A DNA stretch of 64,000 bases, taken from Gautieria morchelliformis (Eukaryota; Basidiomycota; Agaricomycetes; Gomphales; Gomphaceae). Where the stretch lies: positions 1 to 64,000 of the forward strand of contig WHVA01000391.1 of NCBI GenBank assembly GCA_015179125.1, given 5' to 3'. Below the pieces are notes generated by a model that saw only the letters and a program-made list of their open reading frames with translations, was not told where the DNA came from and did not search any database. Both the position numbers and the translations under genes were made by a program. Positions 12,549 to 64,000 of the stretch are shown here, piece by piece; within the stretch, counting starts at the first letter, position 1, and every line of letters begins with the position of its first letter.

Positions 12549-13004
12549 TCACCGCCCCCATTTTCTGATCTCCAGCCATCGAAGTGGGGGATAGACTACC
12601 CCAGCGAAGACAGCTGCAAACACAAATCCCATATCGCCCCCGGAAGGGCCTAGCTTTGCACCACAGGGCCAATATACCACATTTGCGCCATGGAAATTCA
12701 CTGGACCACAAATTCCGCAAAGACTAGCAAAACTACAGGTTCATCAGGCCAAGCGCTACGTTGAAAATTTGAATCATGCATGGCCGCGAGCCCGACTGGC
12801 AATCTTCAAGCGAAAATTTGTGTCGCGAGAGATGGGACATCACTAAGAAAGAAGGTTGGAACTTTTCTCACGCTCACCACAACAACCAAAACGCAAAAAC
12901 CCCTTTTCCCGTGTACACAATAGATACACAACACTCTAGAGTGTCGCTGCTTGTCACCAGCGACACCACACAGCTCCTGCAAAAAGAAAGCAGGCGAAAA
13001 AACG

Positions 13005-14786: not shown

Positions 14787-17700
14787 ACAGGGAAAGCCTG
14801 CAGATCAAAAAATTGAAGATTAGACAACAAAACGTCAACAAGTCGCTGATCGCAACGACAGAGATGCTAGCTAAGTGCTCACCTGACAATTATGATATCC
14901 TTGCAGTGCAGGAACCGTATATTGATTTCCTAGGTAACTCTAGAGCGACCCCCAGCTGGTACACGGTGTACCCCAAGACGCACTTCCAAGAGAAAAGCAA
15001 AAGGACGAGATCGATGATCATGATAAGCAAAAGGATAACTACAGGCGCGTGGGAGGCAGTAGAGATAGGAACGCCGGACGCCACGGTGAGGAGGGTCAAA
15101 ACAAACATGGGTAACGTGCTCATCATTAACATATACTGCGACTGTGCGCAATCTGATAGCATAAGAGCCGTCCAGACATATCTTCAAAGACAGGCAGCCG
15201 ATCAAGGAACGCAGAGGCAGGGACAAGACGTGGAAGGGATAATATGGCTGGGGGATTTCAATAGACATCACCCGACATGGGACGAGCTGAGGAATTCACA
15301 TCTGTTCACAAGAGCTAATCTAGATGAGGCGCAGATATTACTTGACGCAGTAGCCGAACTGGACCTGCAGATGATACTACCAAAAGAGATACCCACGGTG
15401 AGAGCAATGGCCACGGGCAACTACACACGCACGGATAATGTATTCGCGTCTTCACCGCTAGCAGAAAGCCTAATTAACTGCAGGGTGGTGCCGGAGGACA
15501 GACCCCCCAAAAGTGACCATTTCCCTGTAGATACCGCATTCGAAGTCATGGTCAAAGACAGCACACAGACAGCGAAGCCCAACTTCAGACAGGTGGATTG
15601 GCGGGCCTACACAGAGCGACTCAAGGAAAAGCTCGAACAGGACATCAGCACTCTAACGCCGGCCACCCCACAGCAGTTCCACAGGCACTTGAGGACGCTG
15701 ACGGAAGTAATCGCAGACGTGACAGAAGAACTGGTACCCAAAAGCAGGCCGTCGCCATTCATGAAACGCTGGTGGTCGCTACAGCTTACACAGATAAGAG
15801 TGGAGACGAGACGGCTGGGCAGAAGGTCATACGCTAGGCGGAATGACTCAGCAGATGCGGCACATGAAGAATACAGAGTAGCCAGGAACCGATACGCGGA
15901 GGCAATCGAGGGGTCGAAGAAGGACCACTGGAAGGATTTCCTGGCCAACATAGACCAAAAAACAATTTGGACGGCACACAGGTACACATCGTCAGACGCG
16001 ACAGATGGGGGACGAGCGTGAGTGCCGACACTGGTAACGACACAAGAAGGCGGCACATGGCAAACAGCGGAGACAAACGAACAAAAAGCAGATCTGCTCT
16101 TCAACACGTTCTTTCCACAGTCAGCCGCCGGGATAGAGCAAGTGCCGAGAGACTACGAATACCCTGCACCAGCATTCAAATACCAGCCGATCTCAGACAA
16201 ACAGATAAGGAGAGCAGTCGACAAGCTGAACCCGTTCAAGGCCCCAGGGGAGAACGGTATCCGGAACGTCCTCATTAAACGCTGTATTAAAGTTCTACTC
16301 CCTTATGTAGGGCCTTTATTCCGCGCAGCCTTTGAATTGAAAGTGTACCCAGCGGAATGGAGAGACTCGATCACGAGGGTCCTGCACAAACCGGCGAAGG
16401 CGGATTACATGGCCCCAGGGGCGTACAGGCCAATCGCCTTACTGGACACGATCGGAAAGGTTTTATCAGCATGCGTGGCCGAGGACCTAGTGAAAATGGC
16501 GGAGAAGCACTGCCTACTGCCGAACAACCATTTCTGATGTAGGCCAGGGCAGACCATGACTGACGCCATACACTACATAGTAGGGGAGGCTAAAGACGCA
16601 TGGAGGAAGGGAAGGGTATTGGCAGCGTTGTTCTTGGATATCAAGGGGGCTTTCCCGAGCATACTGTTAGACAGACTCATACACAATATACGCAGGAAAG
16701 GAGTACCCCAAGAATACACGGACTGGATATGCCGAAAGGTGCAGGGCCGGCTCACCACGATTAGCTTCGATGATTACACCTTGACAACCAGGGCTGCCCG
16801 CTGTCGGCAATCGCATACCAATTCTACAATGCGGATTTGATCGATGTAGTAAAAGACAGAAGAGGAGAGGGTAGCGTAGGCTTCGTCGACGACACAACAC
16901 TGATAGCAGAAGGAGCCACGCTCAGGGAGGCTTTCGGCAAGCTCACAGATATCATGAATAGACCTGGGGGTGCAAGCTGCTGGGCGACCGAACACGACTG
17001 CCAGTTCGCCATCGAAAAGTTCGGTTTACTAGGATTCACCAGACACAGAGACAAACATCCAATGAGACCGGGCAAAACCAGGCCAATTCAGAGGCCGTCG
17101 ATTAGAATTGGACAGCACGTAATAAAGCCGGCAGCGACACACAAACTGCTAGGAGTAATCATCGACCAGGAGCTAAGGTTTAAGGAGCACACGAACTACG
17201 CACTAAGGAAGGGAGAGGCATACATCGGGCAATACAAGAGATTAGCGAAGCCGATGAAGGGAGCCACAGCTAAGCACATGAGAACATACTACCTAACAGT
17301 GGCCGTGCCGCGAATGCTCTACGCAGCTGACATTTTCCTTATACCAGCCACCAAACGCGCCAAGGGAACGAAAGGACATGTGAATAAGTTGGCACGGATA
17401 CAGAGACAGGCAGCACTGGACATAACAGGGGCCCTAAGAACCACGGCAACTGACACGCTCGACGCGCACGCCAACCTCCTACCGTTCCCGCTCCTAGTCT
17501 CAAAGCTAGTACACAGGGCGGGGGTGCGACTTGCCTGCTTACCACACAACCACCCGCTCGCCACAAGGATAAAAAAGGCCGCCAGAAGATACGTAAAACG
17601 GCATCGCTCGCCCCTCCACGAAATCCTGCATGCTTACAGCCTGAAACCCAACAGCATGGAAAAAATCCATACCGTAGTGTTTGGACCCAAATGGGCCCCG

Positions 17701-18888
17701 GCTTTTGGCACAAAGATTCCGCAGAGCAAGGAGCATGCAAAAGCAGAGATTGCGGGAGAGAGCGCGGACGTGATAGTATTCACAGACGGGTTGTGCATAG
17801 AAGGCGGAGTAGGGGCAGCAGCGGTCCTGTACAAAGACGGGAGAGAACACAGAGTGGCGAGACTACACATGGGCCCGGAGAGCGAACATACGGTGTTTGA
17901 GGCTGAGCTGGCTGCGGCGGCCATGGGAGCCAAAATGCTCAACGAGGAAAGAGGCAGAAAGTATGTGATAGCCCTAGACAGCCAGGCAGCGATCCGAACG
18001 ACCCAAAGAGAGAGTGCTATATCAGGACAGTACATAGCCAACGCTCTACACAGACAGGTCCAAGGAATCGTAGAGCGACAGCCAGCGGCGAAAGTCCTCA
18101 TGAGGTGGGTGCCGGGACACGAAGGGATAGAAGGGAACGAAAGAGCAGATGAGGAGGCTAAAAAGGCAGCGAAGGGAGACACCAGCAGAAACCAGGAGAT
18201 ACCCATCGAGTGTCGAGGGGCCATGCCAATCAGCAGGACCGCCGAGACCCAGAGACACGCTTCAGAGCTCAAACAGATGGTGAGAGATATGTTTGCTAAG
18301 TCCCCCAGATCACAGCGGGCGTTTGAAATTGACCCAAGCATGCCGTCAGCAGCATTCTCAAAGATCACCAGGAACATGCCACGCCGACACACTAGCCTAC
18401 TCGTACAGCTCAGAACCGGGCACATCGCGCTAAACAAACACCTGTACAAGATCAACAAGGCGGAATCACCCACGTGCCCAGCATGCAGGAACATGCAAGA
18501 AACCGTCCACCATTATCTGTTTCGGTGCCCGGTATACAGCGAGCAGAGGAAACACCTGGAAAAGGGGCTGAGGAGAGGAGCGAAGTCCGTGAGAATGATA
18601 CTAGCGAGCCACACCGCAATGGAACACGTCTTTCGGTATATAAACGACACGATGAGGTTTGAAAGGACACACGGAGATCTATCCTTGCAAGTGAAGAAGG
18701 GGAACAAAAGAAGAAGGCAGGGACGGGAGCAAGGAACTAGAAGAAGAGGCACGCAGCCACACACACAACCTCGCCCACATAGGCATGGACAAACCCAGGG
18801 CTTCGCCCATCGAGGACAAGTAGAGGTCGAAGACAACAGGCGAGATGGAGAATATATAGAACGAAATTGTACACACCGTCTTACATAG
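14783..18888 (+). pseudogene. LINE A ORF2, endonuclease-reverse transcriptase-RNase H, three lesions
   Basis: It starts at ATG 14783. The APE-type endonuclease shows RQQNVNKS, QEPYI, WLGDFNRHH and KSDHFPVD (14815-15560). RT covers roughly 16140-17400 with FKAPGENG, AYRPIAL, LDIKGAFPS and FVDD (catalytic pair at about 16882-16887). RNase H follows with FTDG, E, D and D residues (17770-18180). A terminal Cys/His motif (CPAC...H...C) lies near 18475-18530. Lesions are TGA at 16019-16021 (CGA in LINE C), TGA at 16535-16537 (Gly codon in B), and a deletion of about 25 nt near 16795 that shifts the frame and removes the region around RGMDQGCPLS. The host-type role would be target-primed reverse transcription in the nucleus. 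Confidence 0.88.
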
Positions 18889-18916
18889 GGCACGGCCCCA
18901 AAAGACGATAATTGGA

Positions 18917-18945
<29 letters not shown>
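18889..18945 (+). other. LINE A 3' end and poly(A) tail
   Basis: GGGCACGGCCCCAAAAGACG is followed by a short AT stretch and a run of 27 A. The same sequence ends LINE D, and a variant (GGGTGCTGCCCCAAAAGACG) ends LINE B. GGGC.CGGCCC can form a small hairpin, a plausible recognition element for the RT. Confidence 0.7.
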
Positions 18946-18947
<2 letters not shown>

Positions 18948-19775: not shown

Positions 19776-19963
19776 ACCGGACTGAGCCAAACTACTCTAG
19801 CTCTAGCTCCTCATCAGTAGGAGCCTTCGAATCAGCACGTGTTGGACTGGGAAATCTTCCCATTACGACCTCCCACTGGTTGAGAGATTGCAGGGTCGAT
19901 TCCATACTTGTGCTCCATGAAAAATAATTATCATGGTGCAACCTTGGAATCAACGCTGCAATC
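19776..19963 (-). repeat. Copia gag fragment, left arm of a foldback
   Basis: A fossil fragment. The minus strand encodes the start of a copia-type gag (IPRLHHDNYFSW, then QWEVV). The part up to about 19893 is the inverse of 26027-26135. It ends at AACGCTGCAATC (19952-19963), the 5' copy of the LINE B target duplication. Confidence 0.6.
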
Positions 19964-20109
19964 GGGAGCTTTCTCATGCCTACCACCACACCCAAAATCC
20001 CAAAACACCCAATTCCGAGCCACACGCTCACAAAAACACCTCCAGCTCATTGCTGACAACAGTCAGCAATAGCATCCAGCTTCCTCCAAAAGAAGAAGTG
20101 ACCAAAACA

Positions 20110-21872
20110 ATGCCACAGAGCGTCGAACCACAAGCGCCGGCCACGTCACAAGGCCGAACGAGAGCGAGCACCACTCAACAAGCTAGCAAAAAGACCAGAG
20201 CGGAACTGCTTCTAGAACCCAACACATCCATCCGCACGAGAGAGCAAGCGAGACAGTACCTGGACAAGCACGGGTACTACGAGAAAGAAGACCCGCTATC
20301 CACGGAACATCTCAGCTACGCACTGCTGTCCCTAGCGTACAACATCAGCGGCAAAGCTCTGCAAGAAGGAGTGAGGGCGGTGGCAGTTCTAATGATGGAA
20401 GAGGCAGCGAAAACGGTGGGAGCAGCGGTGATGAGGCATGTCGAGAAAAACCTCGAACAAACCCTCTATAAGATCGAAAGAGCAACAGACGAAGCAAAGG
20501 AGGCCGCAGAGAACGCAAAGGCGGCTATGGAAGGAGCTGGAAATGTTATTGAGCATCTGAATAGCATGAGGCAGCAGAGTCTACAAGAGGGGGAATGCAG
20601 AACGAGAGGAGTAATGTATGCAGCTGCGCTCAGAGGTAACGTACCGTTATCACACCTGAACAACTTAGCGAAGGCGAAAGCGAAGGCTAGACAGATACTG
20701 ATAGACGCAGACACACAGGGCGAGCAAAACACGCTCACCAGCTTGACAGAACAAGAGCTGGTGGCCAAGGCAAATGAAGCGATCAACAATTTAGAAGAAG
20801 ACCAAGAGCGACCGACATAGCGTTCATCAGGGCCAAGAAATTAGCCAACGGGGGATATTATTCGACCTCGAAATGGAAAGCGCAGCAAAATGGGTCCAGG
20901 ACAACAGACGAACCTTCTTAAGCAAATTCAGCGGATCCGCTACCATAAAAGATCGAGCGTTCTCAGTAATAGTCGAATATGTACCACTAAACCACTCGCC
21001 TGACGCAATGTCCGAGATGAGGAAGATCGAGCAAGACTCAAAGCTACCCGCCGACACGCTGATATCCACCCACTGGATAAAGCCCCCACACAGGAGAACG
21101 ACAGGACAGAGGTCCGCCTACATCATCGCAAAGCTATCCACCACGGAGGCGGCAAACCAATGCATACGGGACGGCCTCGTCATAGCAGGGAAAAGAACAT
21201 GGGCTAGAAGGATGAAAAGAGAACCCGGAAGATGTCTAAAGTGCCAGAAGTACAACGCGCGACACCTGGCGGCCGACTGCGAAAGCCAAGACAGATGTGG
21301 AATGTGCGGAGGAGAACATAAGACAGCAGACTGCGAGGAGAACGACCCGAGCAAGTTCAAATGCATAAACTGCGACACGATGGGCCACGCATCATGGGAC
21401 AGAACATGCCCAGTCTTCAGAGCGGAATGCGAGAAGGCAGAAAAAAGTGACCCGGAACACACATACCGATTTTTCCCCAACGAAAACCCCTGGACCTGGG
21501 AGCAACAAGGCGAGGCGGAGAGAGCAATAGACGCAGGAGACCTGCTGAAACAAGTCAGGGAACAGGAAGAAAGGAGGTGGAGAGCAGCCGAGGCGGAAGC
21601 CCACGCAGACAAGAGAAAGAGGAGACGAAGAGTGACAGACAGAACTAGAAAACCCAACGAGGAGGGGACGAATGGAAAGCCGAGGAAGCGCAAGGGGCAG
21701 GGGACGAGGAGCAAACCCACGGGTAGGACACATGGACCAGGGATGGCAAGAGAGACAACAAGGGGAAGGACGACAGAGCCGACTAGACGACTATGGGATC
21801 GGAACACACCAAGAACAGACACAGATAGAACAGCACAACGAAAACAACAACACCCATCACCACGATGAGTAG
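20110..21872 (+). pseudogene. LINE B ORF1, zinc-knuckle protein, frame broken
   Basis: Starts at ATG 20110. The first 236 codons match LINE A ORF1 (RTRASTTQQ, RTREQARQYLDKHGY). Two single-base-scale frame changes lie near 20815 and 20853; between them and after them the sequence still aligns with A (AKKLANGG, FDLE). Knuckles CLKCQKYNARHLAADC, CGMCGGEHKTADC and CINCDTMGHASWDRTCP are intact (21230-21415). A third slip before about 21670 puts the conserved tail (NPRVGHMDQGW, SRLDDYGIG) in another frame, ending at TAG 21870-21872. The frame carrying the knuckles ends TGA at 21866-21868. Both overlap the ORF2 ATG at 21865. Confidence 0.82.
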
Positions 21873-24800
21873 AAACGACCAACGAATCTACAATTTGAGA
21901 ATCAGACAACAAAATGTAAACAAATCACTCACGGCAACGGCGGAAATGCCAGCTAAGTGCTCACCTGATCATTATGACATCATTGTTATCCAAGAACCGT
22001 ACATTGAATTCCTGGGAAATTCTAGGGCCACACATAGCTGGTACTCAGTGTACCTGGAGACACACTACCAGAGCAGAGGGGCAAGAACAAGATCGATGAT
22101 ATTAATAAACAAAAAGATAGCGACGAGCGCATGGGGGACAATGAACGTCGGGTCACCAGACATCACGGCAATAAGGATCAAGACAAATACGGGTAATTTC
22201 CTAATCTACAACATATACGAAGACTGCACGTGATCAGACAGCATTAGGGCAGTGCGAAAACACGTACAAGAAAAAGCAGCGGAAGGAGTCACACAGGGAT
22301 GGGAAGCAGAGGGAATGCTGTGGCTGGGGGATTTCAACAGACACCACCCCCTGTGGGACAAGCTCTGCAATTCGCATCTGTTCACCAGGGCCAACCTCGA
22401 CGAGGCACAGGTACTCTTGGATGCCATGGCGGAACACAACATGCATATGGCATTACCCAAGGGTATACCGACACTCAAAGCGATGGCCACGGGGAACCAT
22501 ACCAGAACAGATAACGTGTTTGCATCAAATCAGTTGATAGAGAGGCTAATCACTTGCACAACAGTACCAGAAGAACATCCGCCAAAAAGCGATCATTATC
22601 CCATAGACACCAGAATAGATCTTACAGTCGAAGCCAACACACACAGCCCGAAGCACAATTACAGGCAGGTGGACTGGAAAGCGTACAACAAAGCGCTGGA
22701 AACAAGACTAGAGCAACTTATAGAAGATCCCATCCCGACAAACCAGACGCAGTTTCACCTTCGCCTAGAAGCGCTCTTCACAGCGATCCAGGACACCACA
22801 GAGGAACTGATACCGAGGAGCAAACCTTCGCCATACGTAAAGCGCTGGTGGTCGCTGCAGCTGACACAGAAGAGGAAGGAAACGAGGTGACTGGGGAGAA
22901 GGGCCTACGCAGCAAGGAACGACCCAACACACCCCTCACACGAAGAGCACAGACGAGCCAGAAACAGCTACGCCGAGGCAATAGACGAATCGAAGAAGGA
23001 ACATTGGGCCGATTTCCTCGCGAACATAGACCAGAAAACGGTGTGGACGGCACACAGGTACGCCTCAGCAGGCACATCAGATGGGGGGCTGGCGAGGGCG
23101 CCGACGATGGTAGCACAAAGGAGGAACGGCACGAGAGAGGTGGCAGAAACGAACGAACAGAAGACAAACATGCTCTTCGACACATTTTTCCCCAGAACAA
23201 GTGAAGCGCCAGAGCAGATCCCGACAGATTACGAGTACCCGACACCGGCATTCAAGTATCAGCTGGTAACTGATGGACAGATACGGAGAGCAGTAGACAA
23301 GCTCAATAGGTTCAAAGCGCCAGGGGAAAACGGTATCCCAAATGAACTTATAAAGCAGTGTATTACCGTGCTCTTACCCTACATAGGCCCCCTCTTCCGA
23401 GCAACATTCGACCTCGAAGTGTACCCAGCCGTATGGAGGGACTCCATCACAAAAGTCCTGCGAAAACCAGGGAAAGCAGATTACACGGCCCCAGGCGCAT
23501 ACAGGCCGATCGCTTTGCTCGACACATTAGGCAAAGTGTTATCAGTGTGCGTAGCAGAAGACATTGTGAAAATGGCAGAAAAGCACCGATTACTGCCTGA
23601 CAATCACTTCGGATGTAGGCCAGGCAGGACAACAACCGACGCCATACACTTCGTGGTAGGACAAGCAAAGGATGCTTGGAGGAGAGGGAGAGTGCTAGGG
23701 GTGCTATACCTGGACATAAAGGGGGCTTTTCCCCGCATCGTGCTGGAAAGACTGACCCAGAACATGCGCAGGAGAGGAGTACCATGCGAGTACACAGATT
23801 GGATATGCAGAAAGGTCCAGAACAGACTCACAGTCGTCAGCATGGACGACTACACGTCAGCGACCAGACCCATAGAACGAGGCATGGATCAGGGCTGTCC
23901 CCTCTCGGCGATCGCCTATCAATTCTACAACGCAGACCTGATAGACATCGCGCAGAAAAAGAGAGGGGAGGGCTGTGTGGGATTCGTCGATGACACGACC
24001 CTAACAGCGGAAGGGAAGGACTTACCGGAGGCATTTAGAAAGTTGACAGACATGATGGAAAGGCCCGGGGGAGCATACGACTGGGCGGGGCAACATCAAT
24101 GCCAGTTCGCGGTGGAGAAATTTGGGTTAATGGGGCTTACCAGAAGAAGAGAGAAAGACCCAGCAAAGCCGAGAAAAACCAGGCCGACGGCGAGACCATC
24201 CATAAAAATAGGGAGACACGAAGTGCAGCCCGTGGTGACACATAAATTCCTGGGGGTGATAATGGACCAGGAACTGAGGTTCAAAGAGCATGTCAACTAC
24301 GCTCTAAAAAAGGGGGAAGCATACGTCGGACAGTACAAAAGGCTAGCGAAACCATCAAAGGGAATACTAGCTAAGTACATGCGGACATACTACCTAACAG
24401 TTGTGATACCGAGAATGTTGTATGCCGCTGATGTATTCCTCACGCCAGCAACGAGCAGAACCAAAGGTACCAAGGGCTTCGTGAACAAGCTGGCAAGGAT
24501 CCAGAGACAAGTAGCGCTAGATATCACAGGCGCGCTCAGAACCATGGCCACTGACACACTCGATGCACACGCCAACCTCTTACCATTCCCATTGCTAGTG
24601 ACCAAAACAATACATAGAGCCGCAGTACGCCTGGCGTGTTTGCCTCAAGAACACCCGCTAGCAGAGAGAATAAGGAAGGCGGCAAAGAGGTACGTCAAGA
24701 GACATAGATCCCCCCTACATGAGATGATGCACGCGTTCGAGATAAACCCAGATGCGATGGAAAAGATCCACACGGTGATATTCGGGCCCAAATGGGCTCC

Positions 24801-25853
24801 GGCGTTCAGCGTGAGGATCCCTCTGACCAAAAAAAAGCTAAGGAAGAAATAGAGGCGGATGGAACAGGGGTGGTGGTGTACACAGACAGGTCGTGCATAG
24901 AGGGCGGAGTAGGGGCAGCCGCCGTGATGTACAGAAACGGAAGGGAGTGCAAGACGGCCAGACTGCACATGGGCACAGAGGGCGAGCACACCATATTCGA
25001 AGTGGAGTTAGCGGGCGCAGCCTTAGGAGCCAAGATGCTGAACACAGAGCGGGGCGGGAAGTACACGATAGCCCTGGACAACCAAGCAGCCATACAGACA
25101 ACTAGGAAGGAGCGCGCAATCCCAGGTCAATACCTTGTCAACGCAGTCCATGAGCAAATTCAAAACGTGGTACAACAGCAACCGGGGGTCAAGGTTATCA
25201 TGAGGTGGGTACCGGGGCACGAAGGGATAGCAGGGAATGAGAGAGCGGATGAGGAGGCGAAGAGGGCGGCAAAAGGGGAAAGCAGCGAGGAGAGAGACAT
25301 ACCGATTGAGTGTTGGGGAACGATGCCAACAAGCAGAGCAGCGGAGATCCAGAGGCTCAACACGAGCCTGAAGCAGAGAGCGAGAGAAATCTTCGCTAAG
25401 TCACCCAGAGCTATGCGAGCACATGAGATTGACCCAACCATGCCATCAACAGCTTTTGCGAAAGTCACAAAGAACATGCCGCATAAGCAAGCCAGCCTAC
25501 TAGTGCAGCTAAGGACGGGACACATACCACTGAACAAATACCTACACAAGATAGGAAAGGCAGAGTCGCCCCTGTGCCCGGCATGCAGGAGTGCACAGGA
25601 GACAGTACACCACTTCCTATTCCAGTGCCAGGCATACAATAAGCAGAGGGAGAGGCTGGAGAAAAAGTTGAGAAGGGGTGCAAAATCCACAAGAACACTA
25701 TTGGGAGGGCACAAGGCACTAGAACATTTATTCGGGTACATACAGGACACGAAGTGATTCGAAAACCAGTATGGAAACGTCGAACTACCACCGGCGAAAG
25801 AGGACAAGGGGAAAAGAAAAAGCGGCAGACGGCGCAAGGAGAGAAGACGCTAA
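21865..25853 (+). pseudogene. LINE B ORF2, endonuclease-RT-RNase H, at least four lesions
   Basis: Starts at ATG 21865. Endonuclease motifs QEPYI, WLGDFNRHH and KSDHYPID are present. The RT domain is complete, with RGMDQGCPLSA and FVDD (about 23985), and RNase H begins VVYTDRSC near 24875. Lesions are TGA at 22231-22233, TGA at 22888-22890, a slip in an A8 run at 24829-24836 (the RNase H frame lies two bases away), and TGA at 25755-25757 before a Lys/Arg-rich tail that ends at TAA 25851-25853. B keeps the stretch deleted from A near 16795, so the pair lets each lesion be polarised. Confidence 0.87.
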
Positions 25854-26022
25854 ATTTACACCTCGCCCACAAAGGCACGGACACGCTCGGGGCCAAGCCC
25901 CTTGAGCACAAGCAGAGAACAGAGGTCTAAAGGAGAGAAGGGGAAAACACAAAGAGGAAACTGTACATACCGTCTTACATAGGGTGCTGCCCCAAAAGAC
26001 GTAAAATGGAAAAAAAAAAAAA

Positions 26023-26260
26023 AACACTGCAATCTCTCAACCAGTGGGAGGTTGTAATGGGAAGATTTCCCAGTCCAACACATGCTGATTCAAAGGCTCC
26101 TACCGATGAGGAGCTAGAGCTAGAAGAAGCTTGGGCACTCAGGAAGGAGCATGCGTATACAGAAATTGATCTGCGTATTGAAGAACAGCAATGGATGGCG
26201 TGCCCACTCAAATTGACCCGATCACATCCCCCGACTCCCCCGATGTCACAGGGACACATA
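26023..26260 (+). repeat. Copia gag fragment, right arm of the foldback
   Basis: A fossil fragment in the opposite orientation to 19776-19963. It encodes LQSLNQWEVVMGRFPSPT and continues further into gag (ALRKEHAYTEI) than the left arm does. It begins inside the 3' target duplication of LINE B. Confidence 0.55.
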
Positions 26261-53990: not shown

Positions 53991-54944
53991 TGCAGGATTA
54001 AAACTGAGAGAACTTGCGAACGTGAGACAAGAGCTCCGCCAATGTTATATCTTACCCTCAGTCAGCTCTCGATGAACTTACCAGGAAGCATGTAGTGTCT
54101 TCCCGGGGAGCCGAGCCGGGCGCAGCCCTCGGAAAGCCCGCTGCGAGGGGTGGGCTTGAGACTTAGCAAGCACGAGACTAGCAAGCACGAGACTTAGCAA
54201 GCACGAGACTGACCCATCTATGCACACTCGTACGGCGAACCTGGGCAAGCAAACTTATATTGCGATGCCAGCGCTCTTAGCGCGACCGAGAACCGGGCCG
54301 TGCTCAAGCCGGCGCAAGCATAAATACATGTACGACAAAATAAGTGGGAAGTGGTAGGGTGGGTGCAAAATCGAGAGCTCGAAGCCTTACGGCTATCGAG
54401 CGCGATATGAGTGAGAAGGACGTGAAGAAAGGGGAGAGTAGGAATGCATGTATATATACTATCAGGGACAATAGAACTCTGTGAACGGTGGACAATGCGA
54501 GCTGAGACCCACATGACTCGTCGTCATAGACCCTGAACAAGGTGTCCCTTGTCCATTCCATAAGCGCCCAGTGAGAATCGACCCGGGATCCTTTGGGATC
54601 TGGCGGGTAATTAATGTATTTTAGGGAGGGAGTGGGGTATTTCGGGATGAACCGATGATGCCATAATTAAATCCGTAGCGGCGCATTGGCGCCAGTCCCC
54701 GACTCCGTTGCGGGGTAGGGGATGTCGATATTACAGTTTCATACGAAGTATTCTTTCATAAGTGACGTTTTGCGTTTATATACATTATATTTGTTACAGG
54801 TGATGCGCAGTACCTGTGGATCCTTTTGACCCTTCGGCCCGGAGTTGAATCCGGAGCAGCACAGCAGAGGCAGAGGAGGAGATAAGTGATGACGTGGCTG
54901 GATGCCCTTTGGCAGAATAAGTGGTAATTTGATGTCGAACTCCG
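53991..54944. other. No gene recognised; small tandem repeat
   Basis: The 5' end of the NCS2 relic is probably decayed here. 54158-54207 has three copies of AGCAAGCACGAGACT with short spacers. The rest shows nothing. Confidence 0.4.
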
Positions 54945-56423
54945 TTAACTTGTTTCAGAAGCGCGGTGTGATCTTTTTGCGGGAGGAGTGATCTTGTCCG
55001 CAGTTTCCGTAAGAGGCCGCTTTTGTTTTCCAGTGGCCTTGCTTCCCCAAGGAGCTGGCGTGGGAGTCTGGGGAGCGAGCGAAGTTTCCATGGACGAACT
55101 GGTGGGATCTGTCGGTGTGGCAGGCGAGGTCGGAATGGTCGTCATGGACTTCACGCCGTCTTGTATAGTGGGCAGGACTTGCATGCGTTTCAGAACGAGT
55201 TGGTAAGCCCTCGAACCATTCGGATTCTTTTCGTCAGGTTTGATATGCCACCTGTATTTACACGCGTAAGTATGAATAATCCCACGCGTGATCTGAAGGC
55301 GTACATCCGCAGCGTGGTTAGCACGTTGACAAGTGTACCCTCGGTCAGCGCTGAATTGTACTGGGGGGGGGGGGGGTAATCGTTGCACCCTGTGAGTCGT
55401 GGACCGGGGGAATAATGACAGGTACGGAGCCGGCAACGTTCTTTATGGTCGAGAAACGTGCCTGAGGGTCCGGAAAGTCGGCTAGAGTAAGAGACTCTAA
55501 AGATAGCTTATTGTAAGGGCCACGGGTCAAAAAGCGCAACAGAAAGAAGTCTGCATTACTTTTCTTTGGAGTGGTGGGCTCATTGTTTCTAGCGACATCA
55601 TTTCTACTGGAAGTTTCTGGTAGGTCGTCATTATGTGGCGCATTCGCAGGCGCTGTAAGGATGCTAATGAGCAGTGGCAAAGCGTCAATGACAAGACGCA
55701 CTTTCAAGAACGCTCCTGGTTATCTTGACTGGAGAGCCCGCACTGGAAAATGGGACGTCGTCGAAAAGATTCTCCGAGTTCACCAATACGAGGAAGGTGC
55801 CGTTTTCTTGTCTACGTGTGAACGCGTGCACTCTGGGTTCTTCTTCATCTCTCAGTCCTGGTAGATGTTTAGGATACGCTGTAACACAAAGCTGAGTACG
55901 TACCAGCATTCAGGATGTCATCTCGCTCTTGTTGAATAAGGTGCAGTATATTCTCAATGTACTTCGCCTTGGGTCGCAAGTGTGAAGGCCCTTCGAGTTC
56001 CAGCTGGAGCGCCCACACCATTTTAATTTTTCGAAGTCCCCTCAAGTCAAACTACAGAGAATTCGTCGACAGGGTGTCAAAGTTAGCAGAAAGTAAAGTG
56101 GAAAAAGTTCTACGAAGGCGTACCTTGCTCATTTCACCATCTTTATTGCCGTACGAGGTGAGTTTGGAATCGCGCGTGCTTCGTATAATACGTGCAGGAA
56201 AACGCAGGAGTAAGTGTTTGTTTCCAGAGCCCGACTGGATGAACCATTCCTCAGCACCGATCTTCTTCTCAAACCTCGTGTAGAATTTATCCATGTATGA
56301 CTTATGATTGGGACGGTCGTGGCTGTTGTATATTCGCTCAACGGCGGTGAGTTCCATCGGTTTGAGTTTCCCTAGGTCCTCGTTCTCAACCTCCTCGTCG
56401 GAAATGGTGGCGACGCTACTCAT
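54945..56423 (-). CDS. Unrecognised spliced gene
   Basis: ATG at 56423 opens MSSVATISDEEVENEDLGK. Exon 1 runs to 56124. The intron 56123-56052 (72 nt) leads to exon 2 (56051-55904: LRGLRKIKMVWALQLELEG). A 46-nt intron (55903-55858, with a CCTAAAC branch-like site) leads to exon 3 in phase (GLRDEEEPRVHAFTRRQ). Beyond about 55700 the frame changes once (LKVRLVIDALPLL). It changes again at a G14 run on the plus strand (55363-55376) into a Pro/Thr/Ser-rich, Lys-rich tail ending at 54945. Residues look protein-like but match no family I know. Either two introns remain undefined, or it is decaying. Confidence 0.4.
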
Positions 56424-56779
56424 AGTAGTGGAAGTTGTAATCTGACAGGTGGATCTATCATCGTGCGTGCGACTTGCCTATTTATTAAACCGGTCATTCG
56501 TCTTCATGTGATCAGTAAATGTGACCACTCTCCGTCCGACGAGGGTGAAACAAGGTATAGTGGTGTTCGAATGGTTAAACGGGGTGGACATGACATGCGG
56601 TCATGTGTCTTTGCAGCAGACACTCAGGAATGAAGTCTGAAACAGTCATTAATACGCCAGGGAAGTGAAAGGTTTAGTTGCGCAATTGGATATTACCCAG
56701 TGGGGTTGCACTCACCTAGATCTGGGGAAGTTTACGTGTAGTTGTCGGGCGAGCCATTAATCCATGCCTCGGGCATGGA
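56424..56779. other. Short intergenic spacer
   Basis: Lies between the stop of the peptidase-like gene and the start of the unrecognised gene at 56423, both on minus. It should hold the promoter of the latter. A CATGCC..GGCATG inverted pair at 56763-56780 is the only structure noted. Confidence 0.4.
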
Positions 56780-57508
56780 TTAAGAGGCAGTTGAAGCCTC
56801 GCGGCGCTGATATTTACATACATAAATGTATAAGTGGGCATTCATGTTACCATGGGGTGAATCTAGAACAAGAGGGTTTATGTCCTCATATCGTCCTGTG
56901 TCCAAATGGTAAGGAACCCCTCCGTTGCGTTGGCCATCATATATCCACGTTTCGTTATGCTCTCCTATCAAGCGAGCGGCGAAATGTAGGTGACCTATGT
57001 AAATTACTGCAGTCAATGTGTACCACACGGTACCAGCTGTAGTCGGGATTGAAATGTCAACATCCGGAATAGGAATAGATGATGTTTCAGGGGCCACCTC
57101 GAATATGATGCAGGGTGGGGGCGAGAACAAGCATGTGACCCTCTTGGTCCCGGTACTGCAAGGCCGAGCATGCGTTAATGCCGCATTCGGTGTGGACTGG
57201 TTACTTAGAAAAATGTGAATCCACGATTGTAACGTACGTGGTTCCAAAATGTTAGCCTCCTGTACATGGGAGCTGCACAGTTCGCCACTCAAGTACACAG
57301 TGGCAAAAGCAGGATTGGTATGCGTAGCAATTTCGTCACACGCGTCGCACCACACTTGGGATGACATTTGCAGGCATCCCTGAAGGTCATCGTTAGTTAA
57401 CATCGCCGAAATCACATCGGCCACAGATGCCATGTTCGCACCAAATCTTGGGAAGCGGGTGGGGTCTTCTTGGAATAACACGTCCCTGATGTTGTGGCGG
57501 TACAAGTT

Positions 57509-58543
57509 TTTTTTTTTTTTTTTTTTTTTTTTTTATCCAATTTTTTGTCTTTTGGGGCCGTGCCCTATGTAAGACGATGCGTACAGGTGTTCCGTCAACA
57601 TGCTGTTTCTATCTATGCTCCCTTGTCTATCTCCGCAAGTGCCCCATGGACTAGGTCCCGGGCTTGGCTGTGCTTGTGTGAAAGCGAGGTGGTTGTTCCC
57701 GTGCGCTGCGCGCGGGCGTGTTTTCCGTTCTGTCCTCTCCTCCTATTCTCTTCCCTCGGGCAGCGCGACGTCACCGAATATTTGCCTAAACCTTCCTGTT
57801 TCGTTCACGTACTGGAACAGCGGCGCCAATGCCTTCGGTTTGTTCAGTAGTGTGCTGACTGACCTTGCCCCCCGCTTCAGCTTCCTCTCCAGCCTCCTCC
57901 TTTGCTCGCTGTATGTTGGACAACGGATCAGGAAATGGTGCACGGTTTCGTCTTCGCTGCGGCAGGTTGCGCACGTTGGGGAGTCGGCTTTTCCTATCCT
58001 GAAGAGGTGTCTTGCCAGCGGTACGTGGCCCGTCCTCAGCTGCACTAGTAGCGAGCTTTGCCTTCTTGCCAGCCCGTTGCTGAGTCTTGCGTATGCTATG
58101 GATGGCATCGAGGGGTCGACCTTGTGTAAGTGCCGTGCTCTTGGTGACCTTGCGAACGCCTCTTTGGCTTGCGCTTTAAGGGCCTTGTGGTGTCTCTGCA
58201 GCTCCGCCGACCTGCTTTTTGGCATCTTGCCCCGGAGTATCTGCAGTTCGTGTCGTTCCTTGGTCGAGTCGCCCTTTGCTTCCTTTTTTGCTTCGCTGTC
58301 TGCCCGCTCGTTGCCCCTAACGCCCTTGTGCCCTGGTACCCACCTCATTGTGACCGTGGCCATCTCGCCCCTCTCCCGTCTCATCTCCTCCACCTGCTCG
58401 TGCAACACGTTGACTAGATACTGTCCCGATATGGCCCTCTCTTCTCTTGTCGTTTGTAGCGCGGCCTGGTTGTCTAGGCTCAACGTGTGCGCCCTGCGGC
58501 CTTCCTCCCTCAGCATCTTTGCCCCTAGCGCCGCTCCCAGCAA
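57509..58543 (-). mobile_element. LINE D, 5'-truncated copy with 12-bp target duplication
   Basis: GCGGTACAAGTT flanks it on both sides (57497-57508 and 58544-58555, plus strand). On the minus strand it begins inside RNase H (GAALGAKML), continues without stops through RWVPGHKGVRGNERAD and CATCRSEDETVHHFLIRC, and ends with the shared TAGGGCACGGCCCCAAAAGAC and about 26 A. Truncation at the 5' end with an intact tail is what incomplete target-primed reverse transcription leaves. The open frame and long A tail suggest it is young. Confidence 0.88.
57743..58543 (-). CDS. LINE D ORF2 remnant: RNase H and terminal Cys/His region
   Basis: A continuous frame of about 266 codons from the truncation point to the stop at 57743. 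RNase H residues are present from the second acidic position on (LDNQAALQ, RWVPGHKG, NERAD). The first acidic segment (FTDG) is lost by truncation. The terminal knuckle reads CATC..D.TVHHFLIRC. Sequence is closest in feel to LINE C among the copies, but the two do not overlap enough to prove a shared source. Confidence 0.8.
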   Translation of the reverse strand: MLGAALGAKMLREEGRRAHTLSLDNQAALQTTREERAISGQYLVNVLHEQVEEMRRERGEMATVTMRWVPGHKGVRGNERADSEAKKEAKGDSTKERHELQILRGKMPKSRSAELQRHHKALKAQAKEAFARSPRARHLHKVDPSMPSIAYARLSNGLARRQSSLLVQLRTGHVPLARHLFRIGKADSPTCATCRSEDETVHHFLIRCPTYSEQRRRLERKLKRGARSVSTLLNKPKALAPLFQYVNETGRFRQIFGDVALPEGRE

Positions 58544-58647
58544 GCGGTACAAGTTAATCAAAGAGCTAATTTCCATCTGTGGATGTTGCACTAAACTGTC
58601 AAAGCTGAATCCCAAATCGCGGGACATTGTGGATTGTGACCGGAACT

Positions 58648-60918
58648 TTAAACGCCAATGTTCGTCGCAGACGGTGTAGGAATGGTATAAGCATGTGAAA
58701 GTGGTGTCATACGCACATGACCAGTTATCTTTATTCCACGTGCAACCCACAAACGGCCCTTCCTCTCTGTGCGGATGCTGATCAATATTTCTTGGCGGTG
58801 GTCGGCAGGACTGCTTCCCGATTGGGCGCAATGGGTACGGCTCCTTTTTCTATCATGTGATGCTGCATCTTCATTGACTGAAAATTTGCGTTTGATGCGG
58901 GATAAATCAGTTTGTGAAGTATCAGATGCGTACCGGACCTTGCACCTAGTATCAACTTTGCTAATTGACTCAGCATCAGGAACTTTGGCGAGGGATCCAT
59001 CTGTGAAACCGTACGCTATGCGAGTGTTCAATGCCATCGCCTTGAAGCGGCGCACCTCGAATAGCAAGTCCGGGTGATGCGGTTTGTTGAGGTCTGTCAA
59101 GCATACCGGTTCAGTAAGGAACACGCCACGCCGGCTCGTTGCCCTGGACGCTGCAACGTATGCCGCGCAACCACCCTCTTTCAAGTTCACCAGCACACTA
59201 GGGAGGGTTTTGCCTTGGGCAGAGTGGCCGGTTATGGCGAACGCGGGTTGCAGGGGCAGTTGATGTCGTTTAACACGTGCCTTGATTCTTTCATCATTGT
59301 CCAGGACTAAATCACTTACAGTAAATGTCCAAGAAGTAGGCTCAATGAAAACCCATCCCTGTGGCAGGTGAGGAAGTTTCAGTGGACAGAGCGGAAAATT
59401 GACGAAGGCACCGGTAGCGTAAGTAAAGCCAGAAGTGCAGACCGAAGTGAATATTTTTTTCACAATACCTTGAGCACCATTGGTAATTTTCAGGTCTGTA
59501 GAAATGTTCCTTCCTCTGAGTATGACTGGCATCCCTTCATAAAGTGGTAGGTAACCGGGAAGTGCGCTTTGAACACTCGAAAAGTCTCGTTCTAGGAGAG
59601 GTAGTCGAGATACAGAAGGTACCGGTGAAGCATGCATGGTGTCGTTTGCAGCACATATCACAAGGTCTGGACAGTTTATACCGGTTGTGTTTGCCACAGC
59701 CTTTCTAGCGTTCAAGAGCTCCCGCAGTCGGTTGGTGTGAACTAGGGCTATACTGTCAATGTTCCCGTCTTGATGCATGTCAATCCCAGCTGGATATCGA
59801 TCTGACCGTACACATCTGCTATTGAAAAGGTCAACATCTCCTTCAGTGCATTCTCTATGCCTTAGTCTGTAAACAGCTGCGCCGTATTCGGGGTCATCGT
59901 GCATGTGCGTCTGTTTATGTAAATCTACGACATCTGTAACGCTTTTCCATGCAAGCCTCCCTAGCCGTCTCAGCACTTCATTATTGCTTTGAGTCGAGGT
60001 TGCCCGAATCGGTGTATAGAGAGGCGTACCTTGCACAGGAGGGTATTGGAAGAAGTCACCTGCGAAGATAATAGTGACCCCACCGAACCACACGTCGTAA
60101 TTTTCCTTAGCATATCGAAGTGCATGATCTATTTCTGACAACAGTTGTTGGCTTAGCAGTGAAACCTCATCAAGCAGGACAATATCGACATTTTTCCAAT
60201 CCTCACGCAAAGCGCGTCTATTCTTGATGTCAATTATCACAGACGTTATTGAGTCTCTCCATTCGGGCGGGTATATTTTGAGCTCAAAAGTCGCGCGGAA
60301 AAGCGGGCCTAGGTAGGGAATCAAAATGTCAGCACACTGTATTAGAAGCACGTTTGGGATACCGCTGTCTCCCGGGGCCTTAAACGGGTTCAGTCTGTCT
60401 ATGGCCCTTCGTATTTGGTTGTCCGTTATTGGTTGGTACTCGAAGGCCGGGCTTGGATACTCGTAGTCCGTTGGCGCTTGCTCATAGCCCTCGCTTGGCT
60501 GCGGGAAGAAAGCATTGAACAGCATGTCGGCTTTTTGCTCGTTTGTTCTTGCAATTGCGTGTGTCCCATTTTCCCGTGCCATTGTCAGCGTTGGTACTCG
60601 TGTTCGACCCCCGTCAGATGCATCTGCTGAGGCGTACTTGTGCGCCGTCCAGATCGTCTTCTGGTTGATATTGTCCAGGAAGTCTCTCCAGTGGTCCTTT
60701 TTTGATTTCTCTATGGCACTTGCGTACTTGTTTCTAGCGATCCTATATTCCTCGTGAGCTGCATCCGATGGGTCGTTTCGCCTTGCGTAGGATCGTCTGC
60801 CTGCTCGCCGCGTCTCTGCTCTTGTTTGTGTGAGCTGCCGTGACCACCACCGCTTCATGTACGGTGATGGCCTGCTCCTTGGAACTACTTCCTCGGTCGT
60901 ATCTGCGATAGCAGTCAT
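58648..60918 (-). CDS. Chimeric 756-codon ORF: LINE C RT N-terminus fused in frame to PIF1 helicase
   Basis: Codons 1-224 are LINE ORF2 sequence between endonuclease and RT (SRPSPYMKRWWS, NQKTIWTAHKYAS, RLNPFKAPGDSGIP, YPPEWRDSIT). Codons 226-700 are helicase (motif II at 250-251, motif III at 287-295, V at 560-572, VI at 587-600). The switch falls at about 60246, without a stop. The last about 55 codons run in a frame different from the peptidase-like domain. The upstream LINE frame is interrupted by a solo LTR at 60963, so the natural start is unclear. Lacking the RT catalytic core and Walker A, it should have neither activity. Confidence 0.7.
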   Translation of the reverse strand: MTAIADTTEEVVPRSRPSPYMKRWWSRQLTQTRAETRRAGRRSYARRNDPSDAAHEEYRIARNKYASAIEKSKKDHWRDFLDNINQKTIWTAHKYASADASDGGRTRVPTLTMARENGTHAIARTNEQKADMLFNAFFPQPSEGYEQAPTDYEYPSPAFEYQPITDNQIRRAIDRLNPFKAPGDSGIPNVLLIQCADILIPYLGPLFRATFELKIYPPEWRDSITSVIIDIKNRRALREDWKNVDIVLLDEVSLLSQQLLSEIDHALRYAKENYDVWFGGVTIIFAGDFFQYPPVQGTPLYTPIRATSTQSNNEVLRRLGRLAWKSVTDVVDLHKQTHMHDDPEYGAAVYRLRHRECTEGDVDLFNSRCVRSDRYPAGIDMHQDGNIDSIALVHTNRLRELLNARKAVANTTGINCPDLVICAANDTMHASPVPSVSRLPLLERDFSSVQSALPGYLPLYEGMPVILRGRNISTDLKITNGAQGIVKKIFTSVCTSGFTYATGAFVNFPLCPLKLPHLPQGWVFIEPTSWTFTVSDLVLDNDERIKARVKRHQLPLQPAFAITGHSAQGKTLPSVLVNLKEGGCAAYVAASRATSRRGVFLTEPVCLTDLNKPHHPDLLFEVRRFKAMALNTRIAYGFTDGSLAKVPDAESISKVDTRCKVRYASDTSQTDLSRIKRKFSVNEDAASHDRKRSRTHCAQSGSSPADHRQEILISIRTERKGRLWVARGIKITGHVRMTPLSHAYTIPTPSATNIGV

Positions 60919-62283
60919 CAGCGCGGGTAGATGTGCATTAAATTGTTGTGGTGTGAGGGGATTGTTGGGTGCATTTATGCTCCTGCACCAAAATCAAGCA
61001 TAATATATTCGATTTATTGTATGGTGTTTCAATCCTTTCTCACATTGTTCTTGTACCATGCATCTATTTCTCTGATTATTTTCGAAATTTTCCAGTCACT
61101 CCTTATCTCTCCATTCCACTTTGTTATTTCTATTTTCACAGGCGGCTGCACCCAGCGGAGTTTGAAATGACTTCAACGCGCGAGCCCATGGGCGCTAAAG
61201 AGCCGGGTGCACGTATATTCCTTCTGAGACAGGATAGTGCTCCTCTCTCAGTGACAATAAATTCACTGAGAGAGGCGAGTAGTATTCTTTATATTTACAT
61301 AGTATGTTGACTGAAAATTATGTAGTGTATTTGATTCTAGGTATTGTATTAATATAACAGTGACAATAAATTCACTGAGAGAGTGTATTTGATTCTAGCT
61401 TTCTAAGAACTCTACCGAACCTTCCCTGCCATAGCCCCTAGTTGCTTACAGGGATTTGGCTCGCTGATGTCTGCTTTGAGCCTGGCTTCTAGTTTTTCAT
61501 TATACAGCTTCCAGTCTACTTGTCTGTAGTTTGGTTTTGGCTGTTGCGTGCTTGCCCGTAGAGTTACGTCAAAAATGGTATCCACTGGGAAGTGGTCACT
61601 TTTGGGCGGTTGCTCTTCTGGTTTCGGTCTGCAGCTGGTCAAGCTCTCTGCTAAACTAGTAGAAATAAAGACGTTATCTGTGCGAGTAAGGTTCCCGCCA
61701 TCTGCAGGTCATGTTCGGCTACTGCATCCAATAATGTTTGTGCTGCATCCAAATTGGCCCTAGTGAACAGGTGCGTGTTCCGCAGCTCGTCCCATAGTGG
61801 GCGGTGTCTGTTAAAGTCACCAACCCATATCATTCCCTCTACGTTGTGCTGCTGGCCATCGCCTCCCTCGGCTCTGTTCTGTAAAAACTTCCTTGTGGCC
61901 CTCAAGCTATCTGAGTGTGTGCAGTCAGAGTATAGATTGAGGAGGAGCACGTTACCCATGTTCGTCTTTATTTCTATCGCTGTAACGTCTGGTGTTCCTA
62001 TATCCACGGCCGCCCATGTGTTCATGGCTATTTTCTTGTTTACCAGTATCATCGACCTCGTTCTCTTCTCTCTTTCCTGGTAATGCGTCTTCGGGTATAT
62101 TGAGTACCAACTATTTGTAGCCCTGGCGTTTCCCAAGAAGTCAATATACGGTTCTTGTATTGCTAATATATCATAACAGTGGGGTGAGCACTTAGCTAGC
62201 ATTTCAGCCGTGGCTGTGAGCGATTTATTGACGTTCTGTTGTCGGATCCTCAATTTTTTTAACTGTTTGGTTTCTTCGCTCAT
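60248..62283 (-). pseudogene. LINE C ORF2, endonuclease and start of RT
   Basis: ATG at 62283 (MSEETKQLKKLRIRQQ) follows ORF1 in an ATGA overlap. Endonuclease motifs QEPYIDFLG, WVGDFNRHRP and KSDHFPVD are present. Near 61690 about 40 nt are missing between two ATGG-containing words, which shifts the frame. The solo LTR then splits the linker. The part left of it (60957 down to 60248) is open and joins the helicase. The RT catalytic segment, RNase H and tail are gone. Confidence 0.82.
60963..61450. mobile_element. Solo LTR in LINE C
   Basis: A fossil of 488 bp with ends TGTTGGGTGC...GTTGCTTACA and a 5-bp target duplication GGGAT (60958-60962 and 61451-61455). It includes a 13-bp-arm hairpin at 61241-61275 (CCTCTCTCAGTGA..TCACTGAGAGAGG) and two copies of GTGTATTTGATTCTAG near its end. 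There is no coding content. Family is not determined. Confidence 0.7.
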
Positions 62284-64000
62284 TCTTGGCGTAGGTTGTT
62301 GTCCCTGTTCTCCTCTATTTGCGTCTGCTCTCGGTTGCCTGTGAAGTCGTATTCGTCCAGCCGTCTCTGTCGGACCTCTCCCGCTTCTCTTGTTGTCCAC
62401 CCTTGGTCTCTGTGCCCGACCCAAGGGTTCGCTGCGCCCCTTCCTCCCCACTCACTCCTCTCGTACTCTGTGCGCCCTCCACCTCTTGCTTCTGCCTCCG
62501 CCTCTTGCTTCTGCCTCCACCTCTTGCTTCTGCCTCTGCCTCTTGCTTCTGCCTCCGCCTCCTGTCTCTTTTTGTTCGCTTGCGCGCCGACCCTTTTGAG
62601 CAGATCCCCAGCGTCTTCCATCTCTTCCTGGGCTCCTTGCTGCTCCCAGGTCCACGGGTACTCGTCAGGGAAATATTTATAGGTATGCTCTGGGTCTTTT
62701 TTCTCCATTGCTTGACATGCCTCTACGAACCTTGGGCACGTCCTGTCCCACGATGCGTGCCCGTGTGTGTTGCAATTGACGCATTTGAATCTTTTTGGAT
62801 CAGTTTCCTTGCACTCTGCCGTCCTGTGTTCTCCTCCACAGGTGCCGCATTTGTCGGCGCTGTCGCACTCTGCGGCAACGTGTCTCGCATTGTATTTCTG
62901 GCATTTGAGACAGCGCCGCGGTTCCCTTCTCATTCTTCTTGCCCAGGTTCGTTTTCCTGCTATAATTATTCCGTCTCTAATACTTTGATTCACTGATTCT
63001 GTACTGGCGAACTTAGCTATAATGTGTGCCGATCTCTGTCCTGCAGTTCTCCTGTGAACTGGTTTGATCCATCGGGTTTCTAGGAGGGACTCGGTGGGTA
63101 ACCTCGAGTCTCGTTCTATTCTTCTCAACTCTGAAAGCGCTTCTGGTGAGTGACTTAACGGGACATATTCGACTATCACCGATAGTGCCCGGTCTTTTAT
63201 CACGGCCGTTCCGCTGAACTTGTTGAGGAACGTTCGTCTGTTTGTTTGGACCCACTTCGCCGCTTCTGCTGTGTCCAGTTCGAGGATTATCCCGCCGTTT
63301 GCTAACCTCTTGGCGCCAATGAAAACTATATCGTTGAGGTCGTGATCGTCTCCCAGCTGATCTATAGCCTCGTTCGCCTTCGCGACTAATTCCTGCTCTG
63401 TCAGTTCTTTGAGCGTGTCTTGTTCCCCTCGTGGGTCCCTGTCTATCATTATTTGCTTTTCTCTTGCTCTTGCCTTTGCTAGGTTGTTTGGATGTGAGAG
63501 GGGTACATTACCCTTTAGTGCTGCCGCGTAACTCAACCCTCCTGCTCCGCTGTCCGTTCTCTGTCGTCCCTGCCAGTCTATTTTTCCGACATGCTCTATG
63601 AGGTTATGGGCCTCTTCTGCTGTTTCCTTTGCGACCGTAACCGCATCTCTCGCCGTGTCTGTAGCCGCTGTTATCTTTTCTATGACCGGACTGAGTTTCT
63701 GTTCGACCTGGCGCAGGACCGCCACCGCTACGTTTTTCGCTGCCTCCTCCAACATCAGTATCGCAATCGCTCTGGCCCCTTCCTGCAGTGTCTTCCCAGT
63801 GGCGTTGTGCGCGAGCGAGAGCAGCGAGTAGCTTAGCTGCTCCGCCGACAGCTGGTCGTCTTTCGCTAGGTAACCGTGCCTGTCTAGGTAGCTTCTTGCC
63901 TGCTCTCTGGTATGCACTGCTGCTGTCGGTTCTGTCAGGAGCTCCAGCCTGGTTCTATTGGTGGTCAAATGCTGGTTGCTCGACCTCGTCCGGCTTTGTG
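62280..64000 (-). CDS. LINE C ORF1, zinc-knuckle protein, intact in the window, start beyond right edge
   Basis: Open from the edge to TGA at 62282-62280, about 573 codons. The edge codons (SQSRTR..) align with codons about 13-18 of LINE A ORF1, so only the first few residues are missing. Knuckles CLKCQKYNARHVAAEC, CGTCGGEHRTAEC and CVNCNTHGHASWDRTCP are present. The C-terminal part carries a Gln/Lys/Glu/Ala repeat encoded by an 18-bp minisatellite (62480-62572). The conserved tail NPWVGHRDQGW..RQRRLDEYDF precedes the stop. It is the only undamaged ORF1 of the three copies. Confidence 0.85.
   Translation of the reverse strand, partial: QSRTRSSNQHLTTNRTRLELLTEPTAAVHTREQARSYLDRHGYLAKDDQLSAEQLSYSLLSLAHNATGKTLQEGARAIAILMLEEAAKNVAVAVLRQVEQKLSPVIEKITAATDTARDAVTVAKETAEEAHNLIEHVGKIDWQGRQRTDSGAGGLSYAAALKGNVPLSHPNNLAKARAREKQIMIDRDPRGEQDTLKELTEQELVAKANEAIDQLGDDHDLNDIVFIGAKRLANGGIILELDTAEAAKWVQTNRRTFLNKFSGTAVIKDRALSVIVEYVPLSHSPEALSELRRIERDSRLPTESLLETRWIKPVHRRTAGQRSAHIIAKFASTESVNQSIRDGIIIAGKRTWARRMRREPRRCLKCQKYNARHVAAECDSADKCGTCGGEHRTAECKETDPKRFKCVNCNTHGHASWDRTCPRFVEACQAMEKKDPEHTYKYFPDEYPWTWEQQGAQEEMEDAGDLLKRVGAQANKKRQEAEAEARGRGRSKRWRQKQEAEAEARGGGRTEYERSEWGGRGAANPWVGHRDQGWTTREAGEVRQRRLDEYDFTGNREQTQIEENRDNNLRQE
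62480..62572 (-). repeat. 18-bp coding minisatellite in LINE C ORF1
   Basis: About 4.5 copies of CCTCTTGCTTCTGCCTCC (plus strand), in frame with ORF1, encode RQKQEAEAEARGGG-type repeats. LINEs A and B have only short charged stretches at this place. Confidence 0.75.

Follow-up and report, generated by a model that had tools for sequence, protein, structure and literature searches.

The window, that is, the entire stretch of 64,000 nucleotides analysed here (positions 1-64000 of contig C439 in a 122-Mb assembly of 1,113 contigs), contains a 756-codon open reading frame in which LINE-derived and Helitron-derived coding sequences are joined. The initial annotation reported this frame without stating its strand: the frame runs on the minus strand from an ATG at 60918 to a stop at 58648 (M...V*), and the plus-strand translation of 58648-60918 is full of stops. 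Read from stop to stop, it spans 781 codons (60993-58648, minus strand), the first 10 of which are solo-LTR sequence. The LINE sequence ends with ...YPPEWRDSIT, and Helitron helicase follows. LINE sequence extends to base 60244 and helicase sequence begins at base 60243, 2-3 bases from the annotated switch at about 60246; the join is clean and falls on a codon boundary. On the minus strand, the junction (60243..60244) reads LINE ...AATAACG / TCTGTGATAATTGAC... helicase, as delimited by comparison with 8 LINE copies and 5 Helitron relatives.

The upstream part of the frame belongs to a young LINE, denoted LINE C, that occupies 60244..64000 of the window on the minus strand and, as indicated by matches to other copies, has its 5' end at about 64183 on C439, so that its last 184 bases lie just outside the window. 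Its presumed ORF1 (62280-63998, minus strand) is assigned by position only, and its endonuclease ORF (61651-62451, minus strand) by an Exo_endo_phos match. Sequences 97-99% identical to all or most of 60244-60500 are present on at least 7 other contigs (loci L009-L015), a lower bound taken from the best 40 of 146 candidates, and a more distant copy of the family (L016) is 89% identical. The 5' ends coincide near 64183 in all six LINE copies with this end shown and LINE C, judging from these alignments, has retained its full 5' end. An endonuclease, a reverse transcriptase (RT), poly-A and a target duplication are all found among the relatives of LINE C; the window copy lacks the RT and the 3' end. 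Poly-A is present at the 3' end of 5 of the 5 family copies examined, and the flanking repeats match in 3 of the 4 copies with both ends shown (exactly in L009 and L015, with one mismatch in L010). In the remaining copy, L012, the flanking repeats do not match each other, so it may itself be rearranged. The 5' flanks of LINE C copies differ, but L010 (C215) and L012 (C909) have one in common, combined with different 3' flanks; a rearranged or misassembled LINE copy and gene conversion can be offered as alternative explanations of this pattern. Elsewhere in the window, two near full-length LINEs (12859-18946 and 19961-26024), 68-70% identical to LINE C, adjoin each other in the same orientation.

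The LINE portion of the frame had been described as a reverse transcriptase fragment, an identification that does not hold. The relative L010 has a 718-amino-acid stop-to-stop frame with endonuclease (Exo_endo_phos) matches in which RVT_1 starts at residue 642 with 26.1 bits, below the Pfam cut-off of 29.6, and the remainder of RVT_1 is found in the next frame with 51.8 bits, so that L010 is not wholly intact either. The window junction corresponds approximately to residue 637 of L010 and thus precedes the start of RVT_1; hence the LINE piece is the linker between the endonuclease and the RT. In agreement with this assignment, Pfam searches of the fused protein yielded neither an RVT_1 nor an endonuclease match at E 0.1.

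Upstream of the fused frame, a solo LTR of 488 bp (60963..61450, minus strand; TG...CA) disrupts the LINE ORF; it is inserted in ORF2 of LINE C, flanked by a 5-bp duplication, ATCCC, and missing from L009 and L010. The solo LTR shares 93% identity with the LTRs of a copia element located at C439:67522-72767. That element (L018:3522-8767) appears complete, with a 1,421-amino-acid frame and LTRs that are 99.8% identical, and probably inserted recently; next to it on C439 is the 3' piece of a LINE (about 65413-67104).

The downstream part of the frame is a Helitron helicase (58808..60243, minus strand), in its native frame from just before motif II, that covers PIF1 positions 87-164 of 223 and is matched in tblastn by the protein of the Helitron locus L019. 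Motifs II (LLDEVS), III (GDFFQYPP), V (TGHSAQGKT) and VI (YVAASR), the four named in the initial annotation, are present, and Walker A is absent from the frame. The assignment to a Helitron-type helicase is likewise borne out, the sequence being collinear with L019, which combines Helitron_like_N and PIF1. The L019 frame comprises 2,192 amino acids, is still open at the end of the locus and contains DUF6570, Helitron_like_N and PIF1 domains; Walker A is located at residue 1568 and motif II at residue 1660 of this protein, and the window copy begins between the two. Rep (Helitron_like_N) and PIF1 thus occur in one protein in L019 and not in the window copy, and from its domain content the window helicase is classified as a truncated Helitron derivative rather than a complete member. 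The helicase side is 70-72% identical to L019, L020 and L022. The nearest Helitron copy found, L024 on C181, is 87% identical over 58704-59779, has no match to the window below 56943 and is itself deleted in its helicase. Alignment to L024 and L019 places two additional bases at 58807 of the window, where the tblastn match to the L019 protein breaks into two pieces in different frames. Because of this 2-base insertion, the last ~52 codons of the fused frame (58648..58807, minus strand) are out of the native helicase frame and do not represent native Helitron protein.

The remaining 3' part of the Helitron (54671..57508, minus strand) is collinear in pieces with L019 and L022 and stops shortly beyond a terminal hairpin (about 54680-54693, minus strand), a motif common to these two loci and undetected in L024, whose sequence has no match to that part. 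Copies on C460, C172 and C583 begin at the same boundary, 54670-54671; the hairpin fold is weak when considered alone (z -1.26; 22 of 200 shuffled sequences fold as well). No poly-A was seen at the Helitron 3' end in the stretch inspected. Within the Helitron, at a site where L024 is unbroken, lies LINE D (57509..58543, minus strand), a 5'-truncated LINE 3' end with an RNase_H match, poly-A and the duplication AACTTGTACCGC. The C-terminal piece of the Helitron reads on in frame into LINE D (ORF 57743-58849): in this second in-frame join, on the minus strand of the window, a 368-amino-acid frame passes from ...SLINLYR into the RNase H region of LINE D. A stretch around NWSCAYDS in the Helitron C-terminal portion (about 58770-58546 in the window, about residue 2144 in L019:3423-9998, minus strand) is alike in L019, L020, L024 and the window. 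The 434-amino-acid frame of L024 that spans this stretch has no Pfam match above the cut-off, and the stretch may be an undescribed accessory domain. A different 982-amino-acid frame is located directly upstream of the Helitron helicase piece in L022 (5908-8853, minus strand; C506) and, by eye, looks like a second, different Helitron-type Rep/helicase.

Comparison with the relatives indicates that both sequences are interrupted at the junction. Uninterrupted LINE sequence continues across the junction position in 5 of the 8 LINE copies (L009-L013), and in L015 a short deletion is followed by LINE sequence that resumes past the junction. The other two copies, L014 and L016, carry an interruption 29 bases upstream, which makes them uninformative at the junction itself; LINE sequence resumes after the insert in L016. 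The inserts in L014 and L016 are different, each starting with TG at the same ORF2 base (window-equivalent 60273), which is suggestive of a possible insertion preference. All 5 Helitron relatives (L019-L023) remain helicase across the junction, following one another's sequence. Nothing of LINE C is present downstream of 60244, and there is neither a LINE 3' end nor poly-A at the switch point, just as the initial annotation had observed. A search of the 122-Mb assembly for the 26-mer spanning the junction, tolerating up to 3 mismatches, located it at one place.

A single occurrence could also mean that two repeat copies lying apart in the genome have been linked in the contig. Such an assembly misjoin is unlikely, even though repeats lie on both sides of a junction found once in an assembly of 1,113 contigs, and the common 5' flank and different 3' flanks of L010 and L012 could reflect either misassembly or real rearrangement within this family. 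Assemblers usually misjoin on shared words. No shared sequence was seen at the joint, in a comparison in which the Helitron comparators are ~70% identical and the nearest copy (L024, 87%) is itself deleted. Moreover, the helicase copy is far from the others found (87% for the nearest), and the LINE piece carries private changes, which also argues against a misjoin.

The sequences that should flank the junction in intact elements were not found nearby. All LINE pieces in C439:1-74000 that match the 3' half of L009 do so at only 65-70%. When the L019 Helitron protein was compared with C439:1-79000 by tblastn at E 1e-3, its first 1,640 residues went unmatched, and its C-terminal part, the control in this search, matched strongly. 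The repeat targeted by LINE C is present without LINE C at C478:19925 and C1014:15282, which represent empty sites. Its continuation beyond the insertion point is represented in C439:1-74000 only by short repeat matches of 74-85% near 6.8-6.9 and 10.9-11.0 kb, and a search of the window for a 13-mer adjoining the insertion point, with 1 mismatch allowed, gave no hit. Beyond the shared flank, C478:9900-20200 and C439:1-74000 have in common only two repeats, of 602 and 127 bases. The target is a dispersed repeat or gene-like family that is also represented on C478, C1014, C559, C309, C114, C1003, C849 and C471, at about 74-99% identity. At least within the stretch examined, LINE C and the Helitron thus appear to have both lost the halves that faced each other.

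Two simple insertion scenarios were considered and rejected. Insertion of a LINE into a helicase gene, which the initial annotation had rightly considered insufficient, would leave the LINE 3' half and the N-terminal part of the Helitron in place; no close LINE C 3' half is present in C439:1-74000, and no Helitron N-terminal part in C439:1-79000. Insertion of the Helitron into LINE C fails in the same way because the LINE 3' half is missing from C439:1-74000. The concurrent lack of the LINE 3' half, the target flank and the front of the Helitron is better explained by a deletion or rearrangement than by insertion or template switching. Of the routes that had been proposed for the origin of the frame, deletion and recombination stand, and template switching is disfavoured, since no poly-A was seen and the target continuation was not found.

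Taken together, these observations make it very probable that the fused frame is a passive scar of a recent break that joined the front of LINE C to the back of a Helitron. Under this scenario, a young LINE C, complete at the 5' end, would have inserted into a dispersed repeat, and a solo LTR would have landed inside it; a Helitron with its 3' end, bearing the 5'-truncated LINE D, would have been located in the same orientation. In a deletion or another end-joining rearrangement, the LINE 3' half, the target flank and the 5' half of the Helitron with Rep and Walker A would then have been lost or moved elsewhere, and base 60244 joined to base 60243. The phase would have matched by a one-in-three chance, and the join would be too young for a stop to have accumulated. 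That the rearrangement was a deletion rather than a translocation is presumed, and so is any statement on whether the LTR and LINE D inserted before or after the break. The deletion itself is not directly seen: no reciprocal product is among the matches listed (the best 40 of 374), and no intact allele was found. A search for such an allele with the sequence beyond the Helitron 3' end retrieved, besides the window, partial repeats only, the best of these being 94% identical over about 330 bases.

Two further mechanisms would bring the same sequences together without a break. In template switching, the LINE machinery would start on a Helitron transcript, jump to LINE C RNA and finish at its 5' end. 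The polarity, with the LINE 5' part first, and the complete LINE 5' end fit such a course, and LINE chimeras of this kind have been described in a fungus (PMC2104539), but the helicase side reaches the terminus of a DNA Helitron with no poly-A in the stretch inspected, and the expected target continuation is absent from the window search, which renders this mechanism highly improbable. Alternatively, a Helitron undergoing rolling-circle transposition could have acquired the LINE 5' part, giving a chimera that would now move as a unit. The capture and copying of genes by Helitrons has been described (PMC5148889), and the 3' terminus is retained here; nevertheless, there is very little chance that this is what happened, given that the junction occurs once in the genome. 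Besides copies of the shared LTR, three Helitron loci (on C665, C181 and C340) show similarity to C439:1-79000 in the known 3' part alone, with no Helitron sequence matched upstream, in a search that a short 5' end could have escaped.

The break is younger than the insertion of LINE C, and LINE C is itself young. The LINE piece differs from the nearest copy, L009, at 7 of 720 bases, and only 3 of the 720 are private changes relative to all seven copies (2 nonsynonymous, 1 synonymous), too few to judge selection and not suggestive of it. With so few changes since insertion, few stops could have arisen in this piece. In a simulation, random joins of the open L010 LINE frame to the window helicase remained open in 6,495 of 20,000 trials, in agreement with the one-in-three phase expectation invoked in the initial annotation. 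Because the LINE piece is young and such a share of random joins is open, the openness of the frame requires no selection. Other in-frame joins include that between the Helitron and LINE D and an internal deletion in L024 that links the Rep side to the helicase C-terminal part.

The openness of all 756 codons, a sign of selection in the helicase and the fact that the deletion is not directly seen are the points that stand against a passive scar. Among single-change codons polarised by L019, the window helicase branch has 16 synonymous and 9 nonsynonymous changes, compared with 10 and 14, respectively, on the L024 branch; dN/dS between the window and L024 is 0.23. These substitutions point to purifying selection having acted on the window lineage, in which the periods before and after the break are inseparable, and most simply fit the active life of the Helitron before the break. 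The open frame and the excess of synonymous changes could equally be cited in favour of a new functional fusion gene that consists of the LINE linker and a helicase-derived domain. Such a gene would, however, contain no RVT_1 and no Walker A and would have a frameshifted tail; the private changes in its LINE part are 2 nonsynonymous versus 1 synonymous, the junction is found once, and the solo LTR breaks the LINE ORF upstream, so that this possibility seems extremely remote. The view that the openness is suggestive of a meaningful fusion is accordingly not upheld, considering the missing cores, the frameshift, the solo LTR, the single occurrence and the youth of the LINE piece. Because both pieces lack the catalytic core, the fused product would not be expected to have reverse transcriptase or helicase activity and is presumably without function. 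It is conceivable, with a barely appreciable probability, that the frame is transcribed, for example, from the upstream solo LTR, and that the resulting protein, a LINE linker followed by the motif II-VI portion of a Helitron helicase, perhaps acts as a dominant-negative partner of the Helitron transposase.

If the frame is a passive scar, it serves as a caution that, in a repeat-rich genome, one young break can yield a 756-codon frame over two element types, since about one join in three keeps phase. The history of the locus can be ordered in part: the Helitron was there before LINE D, LINE C preceded the solo LTR, and both LINE C and the Helitron predate the break. If expressed, such a frame would exemplify a route from transposon debris to new proteins.

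The fused sequence can be compared with three known systems. The first is a Helitron with a Helitron_like_N-PIF1 (Rep/helicase) protein, as in L019: the window copy is collinear with L019 down to the 3' terminal hairpin but differs in that the Rep domain and Walker A are missing, the frame is shifted and LINE D is present. The second comprises helentrons, in which a CR1-type endonuclease is reported (PMC4067079, PMC5148889) at the C-terminus of the Rep/helicase. As in the window, LINE-derived and Helitron-derived coding sequences are joined in these elements, but the LINE piece in the window precedes the helicase, has no endonuclease or RT match, and the join is found once; nor does the L019 frame contain the endonuclease characteristic of helentrons (no Pfam match at E 0.01). 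The third system, the MINEs of Magnaporthe, consists of template-switch chimeras with a 3' LINE part, 19 of 31 of which are reported to have target-site duplications (PMC2104539). The direct fusion of a LINE part to other sequence resembles the present join, but the latter has Helitron DNA, with no visible poly-A, on its 3' side, and no continuation of the target was recovered. On the features compared, neither helentrons nor MINEs fit the fused sequence. A literature search on LINE-Helitron joins returned analogues only, and we do not claim that such joins are unreported. The LINE-Helitron join is most likely an ordinary scar of the transposon graveyard.
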